DNA of 61,834 bases from Bacteroidia bacterium (GTDB taxonomy: Bacteria > Bacteroidota > Bacteroidia > Bacteroidales > UBA932): positions 1 through 61,834 of the forward strand of contig JAUNNZ010000008.1 in the NCBI GenBank assembly GCA_030537315.1. Reading direction: 5' to 3'. The position numbers were made by a program, and so were the translations under genes. The notes beneath the pieces were generated by a model, which was given only the letters and a program-made list of their open reading frames with translations, was not told where the DNA came from and searched no databases. This document shows, in pieces, positions 28,650 through 50,793 of the stretch (the stretch's first letter is position 1; each line of letters starts with the position of its first letter).

Positions 28650-30008
28650 TTATCTTTTTACTTCGTCGTTATAAAGGGCTGTAGGGTATTCACCTGTGAA
28701 GCAGGCCTGACAAGGGTCGGCGCAGCCGAAGCAGGAAGCGCAGGTGGATTCAGGGCTCAGGTAGCCGAGAGAGTCGGCTCCGATTGCGGCGCAGGCCTCC
28801 TCCAGTGTCCTGTGAGAACAGAGCAGCTGCTCAGGGGTGGAAGTGTCGACGCCATAGAAGCAAGGGTATTTCATCATAGGGCTGGCGATGCGGACGTGCA
28901 CTTCGGTGGCGCCTGCTTCGCGCAGCAGCTTGACTATCTTGAGGGAAGTGGTACCGCGGACTATGGAGTCATCCACAAGCACGATGCGCTTGCCCTTGAC
29001 GATTGACCGTACCGGGCTGAGCTTCATCTTGACACCCAGTTCGCGCATCTCCTGGACAGGGGCGATGAAGGTGCGGCCCATATATTTGTGCTTGACCAGT
29101 CCCATTTCGTAAGGGATGCCGCTTTCTTCGGCATAGCCCATCGCGGCGCTGAGGCTTGACTCAGGCACGCCGACAACCATGTCGGCTTCCACCGGGCACT
29201 CGCGGTACAGACGGCGGCCGCTCTCCTTGCGGTAGGCGTGGATGTTGCAGCCGTCGATGTCGCTGTCCGGACGGGCGAGGTAGATGTATTCCATTGCGCA
29301 CATCTTGTGGCGCTGGAATTTTGAATACCTGGTGCTGCGGATTCCGTATTCGTCGAAGCTGACGATTTCGCCCGGCTCCACGTCGCGGATGAAGGTCGCT
29401 CCGATGATCTCGAAGGCGCAGGACTCGCTGCTTACAACGTATCCATCGCCCAGCTTGCCTATGCAGAGCGGCTTGATGCCGTATTTGTCTCGGCAGGCAT
29501 AGATGCGCTTGCGCGTCATTATGAGGAAGGAGAATCCGCCTTCCATCATATTGAGCGCATTGACGATGTTGTCGATGCGGCTCTCGTCGTCGTGGTGCTT
29601 CTTGATGAGGTGGGCGAGGAGCTCCCCGTCGGTGGCTGTCTGGAAGATAATGCCCTTCTTCTCAAGATATTCGGCAATCTGCCTGCCGTTGACGATGTTG
29701 CCGTCGCCGGCTATGGCGAAGTCACCGTTCTTGTGGTGAAAGAAGATAGGCTGCACGTTGTCGAGTGCAGCTTTTGACGCATTGGCGTAGCAGACCGCGC
29801 CAATGCCGATCTTGCCTTCGAGCGACTCGATGGTGGTCGGGCAGAATACCTTGTTCACAAGACCCAGGCCGCGGTGGCGGCGGCACTGGCCGTCCTCGGC
29901 GAAGACTGCCATACCCGCGCCTTCCTGGCCGCGGTGCTGAAGGTTGTGAAGACCGTAGTAAATCAGGGTGGAGGCGTTGCGCACTCCGCAAATTCCTATA
30001 ACTCCCAT
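28650..30008 (-). CDS. purF: Amidophosphoribosyltransferase PurF with inactivated glutaminase site
   Basis: First committed purine step, making phosphoribosylamine from PRPP. 452 residues: N-terminal Ntn glutaminase-like domain (1-230), then a PRTase domain with intact PRPP motif VLVDDSIVRGTTS and GRTFI loop. Cys residues in KMCAMEY, YPCFYG and the C-terminal CASCFGC..CQACF resemble the 4Fe-4S ligands of the Bacillus enzyme. The N-terminus aligns without gaps to E. coli PurF up to LQHRGQ, but the nucleophile Cys1 is the initiator Met; the glutamine-carboxylate Arg73 is Cys73, and HNGN reads GDGN (Asp102). Asp127 remains. No alternative start supplies an N-terminal Cys. Probably uses NH3 directly. 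Confidence 0.93.
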   Translation of the reverse strand: MGVIGICGVRNASTLIYYGLHNLQHRGQEGAGMAVFAEDGQCRRHRGLGLVNKVFCPTTIESLEGKIGIGAVCYANASKAALDNVQPIFFHHKNGDFAIAGDGNIVNGRQIAEYLEKKGIIFQTATDGELLAHLIKKHHDDESRIDNIVNALNMMEGGFSFLIMTRKRIYACRDKYGIKPLCIGKLGDGYVVSSESCAFEIIGATFIRDVEPGEIVSFDEYGIRSTRYSKFQRHKMCAMEYIYLARPDSDIDGCNIHAYRKESGRRLYRECPVEADMVVGVPESSLSAAMGYAEESGIPYEMGLVKHKYMGRTFIAPVQEMRELGVKMKLSPVRSIVKGKRIVLVDDSIVRGTTSLKIVKLLREAGATEVHVRIASPMMKYPCFYGVDTSTPEQLLCSHRTLEEACAAIGADSLGYLSPESTCASCFGCADPCQACFTGEYPTALYNDEVKR

Positions 30009-30010
30009 AA

Positions 30011-30730
30011 TTATGCAATGGCTTTGGTCAGACGGTCAAGGACTTCACGGTAAGATGCGACGACGTCGCTGAGGTCGTGGCGGAAACGGTCCTTGTCGAG
30101 TTTCTCGCCGTTTTTCTCGTCCCACATCCTGCAGGTGTCCGGGCTGAGCTCATCGGAGATGATGATGTGTCCGGTCTGGGAGTCGCGCCCGAACTCGACC
30201 TTGACGTCGATGAGTTCGATGCCTGCCTTGTGGCAGAGCGACTTCAGGATGGCGTTGGTCTTGGAAGCGATTGCATACATCTGCTTGAGCTCCTCTTTCG
30301 TCGCGAGACCGAGCGCAATTGCGTGATGGTCGTTGATGAGGGGGTCGTCAAGCTCGTCATTGTTGTAGCGGAGGTCGAAGATCGCCTCTTCAGGCTTGAT
30401 GCCTTCTTTCACGCCAAGTCTCTCGGCCAGCGAACCGGCGATGCGGTTGCGGACGATGAATTCAAGCGGAATGATCTGGATCTTGCGACAGAGCTGCTCG
30501 TTGTCGTTGAGGACTTCGATGAAGTGGGTCTCCACGCCTTTCCTGTTGAGCTCACCGAGCATAAGTGCCGAGATCTTGTTGTCCAGCGCTCCCTTTCCGA
30601 TGAAAAGGGCACGCTTGACACCGCCGTAGGCAAGGGTCACATCTTTGTATCGGAATATGACCTTATGATTGTCGTCGGTCGCGAAAACCTGTTTCTCGTT
30701 GCCGTCGAAAATCAATTCTCTCTTTTCCAT
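30011..30730 (-). CDS. purC: SAICAR synthetase, canonical type
   Basis: Joins aspartate to CAIR. 239 residues with both family signatures: PLEFIVRNRIAGS and LIDVKVEFG, then the metal/ATP segment SDELSPDTCRMWD. Starts overlapping the purL stop by one base (TAATG) and ends 2 bp before purF. A second, divergent PurC lies at the head of the same cluster. Confidence 0.95.
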   Translation of the reverse strand: MEKRELIFDGNEKQVFATDDNHKVIFRYKDVTLAYGGVKRALFIGKGALDNKISALMLGELNRKGVETHFIEVLNDNEQLCRKIQIIPLEFIVRNRIAGSLAERLGVKEGIKPEEAIFDLRYNNDELDDPLINDHHAIALGLATKEELKQMYAIASKTNAILKSLCHKAGIELIDVKVEFGRDSQTGHIIISDELSPDTCRMWDEKNGEKLDKDRFRHDLSDVVASYREVLDRLTKAIA

Positions 30731-48351: not shown

Positions 48352-49830
48352 ATGTCATTCATCGAAGATAGAATCGCTCTTGAAGGCTTGACCTTTGATG
48401 ACGTTTTGCTCATCCCGGCCTACTCTGAAGTCCTCCCTTGTGACGTATGCCTGACAAGCCGTTTTTCCAGAAACATCAATCTGAACATTCCGATCGTGTC
48501 CGCCGCAATGGATACAGTAACCGAAGCGCCGATGGCCATAGCTCTTGCGAGAGAAGGTGGAATCGGCGTTGTTCATAAAAACATGTCCATCGCCCAGCAG
48601 GCCGCCGAGGTCCGCAAGGTCAAGAGGGCGGAAAGCGGAATGATCAACGATCCGGTGACGATCAAGGCGAACCAGACCGTAGGTGACGCTCTGGATCTGA
48701 TGCGCGAGAACCATATCGGAGGCATCCCTGTCACCGATGATGACAACAAACTCGTGGGCATTGTAACCAACAGGGACGTCAGATTCCAGGACGACATGTC
48801 TGTCCTTATCAAGGATATGATGACCACAGATGGTCTCGTCACCATCCTCAACACTGAAAACGACCGCGCTCACGTTCGCGCTGTCCTTCAGAAATACAAG
48901 GTCGAAAAACTTCCTGTCGTTGACAAGGACGGAAAGATCGTCGGCCTCATCACATACCGCGACCTCCAGAAGGAAAAGGAGCACCCGAACGCCTGCAAGG
49001 ATTCCGTCGGCCGCCTCCGCGTGGCAGCCGGAATCGGCATCACCGGCGACGCTCTCCAGCGTGTCGCCGCCCTTGTCGCCGAAGGCGTTGACGCAGTCGT
49101 TCTCGACTGCGCGCACGGCCACAGCCGCAACGTTCTCACCAAACTCAAGGAAATCAAGGCCGTTTACCCTACACTTGACGTCGTTGTCGGCAACATCGCC
49201 ACGGCAGATGCTGCAAAGGCTCTCCTCGAGGCAGGCGCAGACGGCATCAAGGTAGGTATAGGACCGGGTTCCATCTGCACCACCCGCATCGTCGCAGGCG
49301 TAGGCGTACCTCAGCTCACGGCAATCTACGAATGTGCGAAAGTCGCGGCGCAGTATGACGTCCCTGTCATTGCGGACGGCGGTCTGCGCTACTCCGGCGA
49401 CGTCGTCAAGGCTCTCGCCGCAGGCGGCAACTGCGTGATGTGCGGCTCGATGTTCGCCGGCACGGAAGAGGCCCCGGGCGAAACCATCATCTACAACGGA
49501 CGCAAATTCAAGACATATCGCGGAATGGGCTCTCTCGACGCAATGGAAGCCGGTTCGAAGGACCGCTACTTCCAGTCAGGCACGAAAGACACCAAGAAAC
49601 TCGTTCCCGAAGGCATCGTAGGACGTGTCCCTTACAAGGGTACGCTCGAAGAGACGGTATATCAGTTAGTAGGCGGACTCAGGTCCGGTATGGGCTACTG
49701 CGGCGCCCACAACATCGGCGAACTGCAGAAAGCCAAGTTTACACGTGTGACGGCAAGCGGTATGACGGAAAGTCATCCGCACGACATCACCATCACGAAA
49801 GAAACACCTAATTATACTAGAGGAGATTAA
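48352..49830 (+). CDS. guaB: IMP dehydrogenase
   Basis: Oxidises IMP to XMP, first step to GMP. 492 residues: TIM barrel split by two CBS domains (about 95-205), catalytic Cys loop [17 protein letters not shown], flap with [10 protein letters not shown] and C-terminal KYFPEG-like [22 protein letters not shown]. guaA starts 3 bp downstream. Confidence 0.97.
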
Positions 49831-49833
49831 TTA

Positions 49834-50793
49834 ATGTACAACGGAGAAAAATTGAACGCCAAGGCGTTCGTAGCAGAGCAGGTCGCTGCCATCAAGGAGC
49901 AGGTCGGATCTGACGTGGTTATTCTCGGTTTGTCTGGCGGAGTTGATTCCACCGTGACGGCTATGCTCATCAACAAGGCAATCGGCAGCAAGCTGCAGTG
50001 CATCTTTGTTGATCACGGTCTTCTTCGCAAGAACGAATATGAGGACGTTCTTGAGCACTACAAGGTGCTCGGCCTCAATGTCAAGGGCGTACGTGCCGCT
50101 GACAGATTCTTCGCAGCCTGCAAGGGCATCACCGATCCCGAGCTCAAGCGCAAGGCTATCGGAAAGACTTTCATCGACGTGTTCAACGAGGAGGCCCACA
50201 AGGTCTCAGACGCCAAGTGGCTTGCACAGGGCACCATCTGGCCGGACATCGCCGAATCCAAGTCCGACAAGGGAACAATCAAGAGCCATCACAACGTGGG
50301 CGGTCTTCCTGAGGAGATGCACCTCGGTCTCGTAGAGCCTCTTAAGTACCTCTACAAGTTCGAAGTCCGCGAAGTCGGTTTCGAACTCGGACTCGACGCC
50401 AGCTTCGTCAACCGTCACCCGTTCCCGGGCCCGGGCCTCGGCGTCCGTTGCCTCGGAGAACTCACTCCTGAAAAGATCGCCATCCTCCAGGAGGCCGATG
50501 CCATCTGGATCAACACCCTCCGTGAGACAGGCTGGTATGACAAGATCTGGCAGGCTGCCGCAATCTTCGTCCCTGTAAAGACCACAGGCGTTTCAGACGG
50601 CTGCCGCACATACGACAACGTCATCGCGCTCCGCGCCGTCAACAGCGTTGACGCCGTTACCGCTTCCGTAGTCCAGGTCCCTTGGGAAATCCTTGACAAG
50701 GTTCAGCACGACATCATCGCCAACGTCAAGGGTGTCAACAGAGTAGTCTTCGACATCTCGTCAAAGCCTCAGGCCACCATCGAGTGGGAGTAA
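49834..50793 (+). CDS. guaA: GMP synthase lacking the glutaminase domain
   Basis: Aminates XMP to GMP. At 319 residues it holds only the ATP-pyrophosphatase (PP-loop LSGGVDS, residues 33-39; [10 protein letters not shown]) and the C-terminal dimerisation domain (FPGPGLGVR, ending KPQATIEWE). Bacterial GuaA is normally about 510-525 residues with an N-terminal class I glutaminase; nothing of that domain remains between guaB and this start, and no separate glutaminase subunit is in the window. It resembles the archaeal GuaAb subunit in layout. It should work with ammonia unless a subunit is encoded elsewhere. Confidence 0.94.

Follow-up and report, generated by a model that had tools for sequence, protein, structure and literature searches.

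Can enzymes that normally take amide nitrogen from glutamine serve nucleotide synthesis with free ammonia as their main substrate? The question is raised by a stretch of 61,834 nucleotides from a Bacteroidales bacterium (contig JAUNNZ010000008.1 of GenBank assembly GCA_030537315.1; hereafter the window), which carries the genes for the phosphoribosyl pyrophosphate (PRPP) amidotransferase PurF, the carbamoyl phosphate synthase subunits CarA and CarB, and the GMP synthase GuaA. Glutamine amidotransferases (GATases) are textbook users of glutamine, and their activity with ammonia is usually seen as a laboratory side reaction. A sequence-only reading of the window had proposed that PurF, CarA and GuaA lost their glutaminases by three different routes with the synthase parts intact; this is borne out here, and it holds across the clade. 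To judge from their sequences, PurF, CarAB and GuaA of the window clade are likely ammonia-type forms of glutamine amidotransferases, and the three enzymes probably run on free ammonia around the cell.

Glutaminase parts of PurF, CarA and GuaA

The window PurF matches the amidophosphoribosyltransferase profile TIGR01134 over its full length and above the cut-off, and it combines an intact phosphoribosyltransferase (PRTase) domain with a glutaminase domain, residues 1 to about 230, that is inactive. When aligned from residue 2 to the solved B. subtilis PurF, it has Met in place of the nucleophile Cys1, Cys in place of the glutamine-binding Arg73, and Asp (Asp102 of the window protein) in place of Asn101 (E. 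coli numbering). The protein is left without the N-terminal Cys nucleophile and the glutamine-binding Arg/Asn that a glutamine-dependent PurF requires; the replacements of Cys1 and Arg73 had been called from the sequence alone, and alignment to solved enzymes and relatives confirms both. A missed start codon is ruled out: the stop of the purC-type gene upstream ends 2 bases before the purF ATG, the window sequence has no ATG, GTG or TTG in frame upstream of that ATG, and although the window and its sister species do have an in-frame Cys codon, 3 codons ahead of that ATG, no start codon precedes it and the other clade members shown are without it. Ser as a replacement nucleophile was also rejected, in that basal PurFs starting MS place the Ser one position after the Cys site; the Ser variant of E. 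coli PurF had no glutamine activity (PMC3261824).

These changes in PurF are old and common to the clade, and the inactive state is itself conserved. In a quick maximum-likelihood tree of 83 rows, the 50 Cys-less rows (49 distinct, the window sequence being present twice) fall on one side of a branch with a Shimodaira-Hasegawa-like approximate likelihood ratio test (SH-aLRT) value of 100, and the loss of Cys appears to have had a single origin. All 50 carry Asp or Glu at position 101, and residue 73 is Lys in 44 of them, Cys in 3, Gln in 2 and Arg in 1; Arg73 and Asn101 are found together in 25 of 25 rows with Cys1. Eight Cys-less PurF-like proteins form a separate group with Ser and Val at positions 73 and 101. 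At loci L106-L113 there is a PurF-like protein from Bacteroidales, about 480 codons long and starting MGGFFG or MSGFFG, which is without Cys1, Arg73 or Asn101.

The window CarA matches its own profile, TIGR01368, above the cut-off. Compared with E. coli CarA, Cys269 is replaced by Gly251, Gln273 by Glu255 and His353 by Gln333, with Glu335 corresponding to a retained Glu355, so that Gly251, Gln333 and Glu335 occupy the sites of the Cys-His-Glu triad of a glutamine-hydrolysing CarA; the Gly and the Gln had both been read correctly beforehand. Gly at the nucleophile site and Glu for Gln273 occur in 37 of 37 distinct window-clade sequences, and the full triad in none of them. The full triad is present in 14 of 14 CarAs of the other type and CarA-CarB fusions, in 7 of 45 Alistipes-like CarAs and in 2 of 10 members of a third CarA group of the genus, proportions that are biased because the rows were gathered with the inactive CarA as query and the best 80 were kept. 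The nucleophile site of the Alistipes-like CarAs holds G in 16, S in 15, C in 7, A in 3, E in 2, D in 1 and N in 1. A Ser-for-Cys CarA is unlikely in general to be a working enzyme, given that the site may hold any of G, S, A, E, D or N. In a quick CarA tree of 116 rows, Cys is missing in 92; the Cys label requires at least 5 changes, the starred branches force 3, and there would be about 11 loss events (counted by eye) if loss is irreversible. Loss of the nucleophile thus appears to be repeated in CarA. CarA-CarB fusions, about 1460 to 1500 codons long and with their glutaminase intact, were seen in G027:C4, G036:C62, G095:C23, G097:C3, G105:C5 and G141:C7.

GuaA retains the ATP pyrophosphatase (ATPPase) and C-terminal part of the two-domain bacterial GMP synthase, matching TIGR00884 above the cut-off, and is matched by the solved GMP synthase subunit B chains 2dpl and 6jp9. 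As had been noted, it has no glutaminase domain: the chain starts with the ATPPase part, with the SGGVDS motif at residue 34, 33 residues from the start, and the N-terminal GATase domain is missing. In G023 and G129, each 97% complete, this short type was the only match for GuaA, and G071 has a full-length GuaA besides it. A second kind of short GuaA, of another clade, often adjoins a full-length one, and full-length guaA followed by glutaminase-less guaA of the other clade was seen in G003:C46, G008:C57, G089:C22, G091:C24 and G096:C62. Two independent domain losses were considered and set aside: two short clades exist, yet the tree requires one change only.

The glutaminase of PurL is kept, as had also been read, with its Cys in 32 of 32 clade loci and the GHSE motif in 28 of 32 (the pattern missed it in 4), and the window genome and its sister both have an intact HisH. 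The window genome further holds a second CarB (C17:17276-20383; L331:10250-13480), 43% identical, which is read by eye as the last gene of the operon argR-argG-argC-argD-argF-argB-argE-argH-carB, and no CarA-like sequence was found in the 20 kb around this locus. This lone CarB also occurs in G095 (C14) and G105 (C2), both of which have CarA-CarB fusions elsewhere. The earlier tally of three inactive amidotransferases out of four is right for the three and an undercount overall, HisH being a further intact enzyme and the CarA-less CarB a fourth one without a glutaminase.

The genes lie in two biosynthetic clusters and a guaBA pair (Table 1), in which guaA begins 3 bases after guaB. The order of the pyrimidine operon is identical in L263, L273 and L274. 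Two purC-type genes occur in the purine cluster, at 30011-30730 and 34929-35612, the former scoring just below the TIGR00081 cut-off (189.5 versus 189.9). A gene of the F420 ligase family (PF01996; 46975-48186) stands between the pyrimidine and guaBA genes, and the same gene adjoins purC in G023, G071 and G129.

Table 1. Positions in the window of the genes and gene clusters discussed, with the basis of each assignment.
Feature	Coordinates	Strand	Description	Basis
purine run	22083..35612	-	folD, purD, purH, purN, purM, purF, purC-type, purL, purE, second purC-type	Pfam, NCBIfam; purE and second purC-type by eye
purF	28650..30008	-	PRPP amidotransferase	TIGR01134, 462.8 bits (cut-off 350), residues 2-442
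purL	30730..34416	-	phosphoribosylformylglycinamidine (FGAM) synthase, intact glutaminase domain	TIGR01857, 1663.3 bits (cut-off 1057.05)
pyrimidine operon	35756..45347	+	pyrC-carA-carB-pyrK-pyrD-pyrF-pyrE-pyrB	carA and carB NCBIfam; other names by eye from open reading frames
carA	37033..38115	+	carbamoyl phosphate synthase small subunit without nucleophile	TIGR01368, 339.4 bits (cut-off 307.35)
carB	38108..41296	+	intact large subunit, synthase partner of inactive CarA	TIGR01369, 1463 bits (cut-off 1027)
guaB	48352..49830	+	IMP dehydrogenase, directly upstream of short guaA	named by eye and homology
guaA	49834..50793	+	GMP synthase, ATPPase and dimerisation part only	TIGR00884, 423.7 bits (cut-off 338.75)

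Glutamine-type copies in the window genome and its relatives

The window is contig C58 of assembly G000, which comprises 1.90 Mb in 60 contigs and is 82.4% complete and 0.09% contaminated. Its closest named relative is a Bacteroidales metagenome-assembled genome (MAG) from horse feces (locus L004; CarA 95% identical), and further close relatives are chiefly MAGs from the rumen and other ruminant guts; one relative bears the name Candidatus Cacconaster, Bacteroidales incertae sedis. The genome of the sister species from horse feces, G145, has 2.7 Mb, with no completeness figure given. Copy numbers were surveyed in 121 genomes sampled in the genus and in 18 genomes reached via named loci, at least 3 of which duplicate assemblies of the first set (G036, G119 and G141). 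The altered PurF, CarA and GuaA states are shared by many MAGs that come from several projects and therefore do not stem from one assembly error; sequencing error or contamination is rejected on the same ground.

Intact second copies of these enzymes were looked for, and none was found in the available 82% of the window genome or in its sister: neither yielded an intact CarA, PurF, GuaA or PyrG. In the window genome, PF00117 matches only the inactive CarA and HisH, so that no separate GATase subunit gene of the archaeal type was found; no class II glutaminase domain (PF13522) was found except that of PurF, and the PyrG and GlmS models found nothing of their own. In the sister, PF00117 likewise gives only the inactive CarA and HisH, PF13522 only the Cys-less PurF (a weak detector for a second PurF there, since the long Bacteroidales PurF reaches only 25.1 bits with it; other genomes were checked with a PurF protein query), and the CTP synthase domain PF06418 nothing; AsnB, looked for through its glutaminase domain only, was not found either. 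G129, which is 97% complete, has one PF00117 match, peptidase-like by eye, and only the Cys-less PurF under PF13522; CarB was also not found in it. The PF06418 domain was absent from 16 of 19 genomes, including G000, G145, G119 (98% complete) and G129 (97%), in a set chosen partly because earlier searches had missed PyrG, and controls were positive in 14 of 14. A PyrG without its GATase part was considered and dropped, as the PF06418 search found none, and SIS-only GlmS-like open reading frames were not accepted as an ammonia-type GlmS, the one in G023 looking by eye like another SIS family.

Many relatives have a glutamine-type set in addition to the ammonia-type one. A close inactive CarA is present in 12 of the 121 sampled genomes, 8 of which carry the other CarA type as well (Cys and His were read from the sequence in G003, G088, G093, G097 and G119); the four with no second CarA are G000, G135, G137 and G139, at 75 to 88% completeness. 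A second intact CarA was likewise found in 12 of the 18 named-locus genomes, all but G145, G148, G156, G159, G160 and G161. The full-length Cys-less PurF occurs in 34 of the 121 genomes. Among the 13 that are at least 90% complete, it is the sole PurF found in 5 (G023, G069, G071, G119 and G129; 95 to 98% complete), and a second PurF is present in 6, with Cys read in G003, G082, G093, G097 and G121 and the G022 copy cut off at a contig end; the remaining two, G088 and G089, have further PurF matches. The proposal that the lineage has moved to ammonia is thus only partly right: it agrees with the window species and its sister, in which only the ammonia-type set was found, and is not supported lineage-wide, given the second CarAs and PurFs of the relatives.

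Selection on the inactive domains and the choice of amide donor

The genes are under purifying selection, with ratios of nonsynonymous to synonymous substitution rates (dN/dS) far below 1. Between the window and its sister, dN/dS is 0.034 for purF (glutaminase half 0.076, PRTase half 0.003), 0.057 for carA (two parts, 0.020 and 0.085), 0.003 for guaA and 0.011 for carB; in purL, the working glutaminase domain has 0.030 versus 0.035 for the synthase part. The median dN ratio between the halves is 2.96 in Cys-less PurFs (338 pairs), and 1.29 and 1.41 in Cys1 PurFs, from 3 and 4 pairs only. The same picture is given by amino-acid distances compared in matched bins, with 3.69, 2.64, 1.90 and 1.54 for Cys-less versus 1.63, 1.34, 1.13 and 1.08 for Cys1 PurFs (34 and 17 sequences). 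These ratios indicate that the PurF glutaminase half is less tightly constrained than its counterpart in working enzymes but constrained all the same, with new residues fixed in its pocket. Relaxed selection, which had been suggested for these losses, fits the faster change of the glutaminase halves relative to the synthase halves; the conserved new pocket residues and the low dN/dS speak against it.

In the mechanism that we propose, free NH3 would be what the synthase parts use to form phosphoribosylamine, carbamoyl phosphate and GMP. GuaA has lost its glutaminase part, and PurF and CarA would have kept theirs as a catalytically empty structural domain, with the PurF glutamine pocket rebuilt around the conserved Lys73 and an acid at 101, which may fill it, and the CarA pocket rebuilt with the conserved Gly and Glu. 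NH3 would then be the cellular substrate, and high ammonia in the rumen and hindgut may have made the change possible. Several rumen bacteria require ammonia. Prevotella ruminicola 23 did not grow with amino acids as sole nitrogen source (PMC5552732). Ammonia use is supported by the fact that the parts that remain are those known to accept it: ammonia is still a substrate for E. coli PurF in which Ala or Ser replaces Cys1 (PMC3261824), CarB can form carbamoyl phosphate with ammonia as the nitrogen source (PMC6245113), and the ATPPase part of GMP synthase works on external ammonia without the GATase (PMC10526850).

It is possible, and we put this forward as a tentative reading, that a free-living Bacteroidales branch gave up glutamine as the amide donor for nearly all nucleotide synthesis, with an obligate ammonia PurF whose pocket was rebuilt for the purpose, a CarA lacking the nucleophile, an arginine CarB with no CarA, a GuaA without its glutaminase domain, no PyrG or GlmS found, and PurL and HisH as the only glutamine users. 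Several considerations weigh against the ammonia-type explanation. The window genome is only 82% complete, and the catalytic His (His353) is retained in 25 of the 37 window-clade CarAs (the others have Gln in 10, Asn in 1 and Ile in 1). All 5 of the sampled genomes with the close inactive CarA that are at least 90% complete also have an intact one, which indicates that the two sets often coexist, and since most sampled relatives with the inactive CarA hold an intact one, the inactive forms might play only a secondary part in them. The search for a subunit acting in trans covered PF00117 only, and a glutaminase of unknown family acting in this way was not searched for. Finally, the ammonia reaction of the E. 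coli carbamoyl phosphate synthetase needs very high, likely physiologically irrelevant concentrations (PMC6245113), to which the 4 to 70 mM ammonium of the rumen (PMC5552732) is a counter-argument.

Dual isozymes would account for the same genes if the inactive set were one member of a pair, the one for high ammonia, and the glutamine-type member lay, for the window species, in the missing 18% of its MAG. The second CarAs and PurFs of the relatives favour this explanation, and the glutamine-type genes are often clustered, as in guaB-guaA-carAB-pyrG-purF of G027:C4, so that one missing contig could remove several of them. We nevertheless think it unlikely, because the sister genome is likewise without the glutamine-type set and no second PurF was found in the five genomes at 95 to 98% completeness. 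A regulatory or assembly role of the inactive glutaminase domains, as pseudo-domains supplied with ammonia in trans by another glutaminase and not from the environment, is improbable: the catalytically empty domains are indeed kept under purifying selection, and CarA persists even though CarB can use ammonia by itself, but PF00117 gave no candidate for such a subunit in G000 or G145 other than HisH, other glutaminase families not having been searched. Decay of genes in a species living on nucleotide salvage, to which the missing CTP synthase of G000 and G145 and the roughly threefold faster evolution of glutaminase halves over the PRTase half might point, is very improbable in view of the complete purine and pyrimidine operons, the low dN/dS and the conservation of the inactive pockets over a deep clade.

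If the shift to ammonia as amide donor is real, ammonia would be a required biosynthetic substrate, and the reliance of some bacteria of the rumen and hindgut on ammonia would have a genetic cause. In a whole clade the ammonia reaction appears to have become the principal one for the first step of purine synthesis, which would tie enzyme evolution to ecology, ammonia being abundant in the rumen and hindgut, and makes an ammonia requirement testable. Annotation pipelines call these enzymes "glutamine-hydrolysing", which they cannot be, and this would mislead metabolic models.

Comparison with known ammonia-type amidotransferases

Ammonia-type amidotransferases are already known or proposed in other systems, and what is unusual here is the number of enzymes, the conserved rebuilt PurF pocket and the presence of this PurF as sole copy. 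Search listings of open-licence papers yielded no account of the present case, be it an ammonia-using PurF in Bacteroides, a pseudo-glutaminase CarA or a glutaminase-less GMP synthetase in Bacteroidetes. Mammalian carbamoyl phosphate synthetase I keeps the small-subunit part without glutaminase activity and uses ammonia as its donor. That enzyme (solved chain 5dot) is one fused chain of the urea cycle activated by N-acetylglutamate, whereas here CarA and CarB are separate, are encoded in a bacterial pyrimidine operon, and combine Cys to Gly with Gln to Glu.

A close likeness to the window PurF is PurF' of the Crenarchaeota, a PurF homologue without the N-terminal Cys found in purine gene clusters, for which ammonia dependence is a proposal (PMC3261824). 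Each of those genomes also has a Cys-bearing PurF (PMC3261824), whereas the Cys-less form is the sole PurF in 5 of the 13 more complete genomes here, and the conserved Lys73/acid101 pocket is a feature of the present clade. The free-standing ATPPase chain of GuaA resembles that of the archaeal two-subunit GMP synthase, which keeps a separate GATase subunit (PMC10526850); none was found by PF00117 in the window genome. Single-domain NAD synthetase is also a synthase without a glutaminase domain and uses only ammonia in vitro, but it is another enzyme and its form is held to be ancestral (PMC3376133), whereas here the domain was lost from glutamine-type enzymes. Finally, the isolated CarB of E. 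coli uses ammonia and, as a large subunit alone, matches the CarA-less second CarB of the window genome, though the former is a laboratory state that needs high ammonia (PMC6245113) and the latter is a natural gene arrangement.

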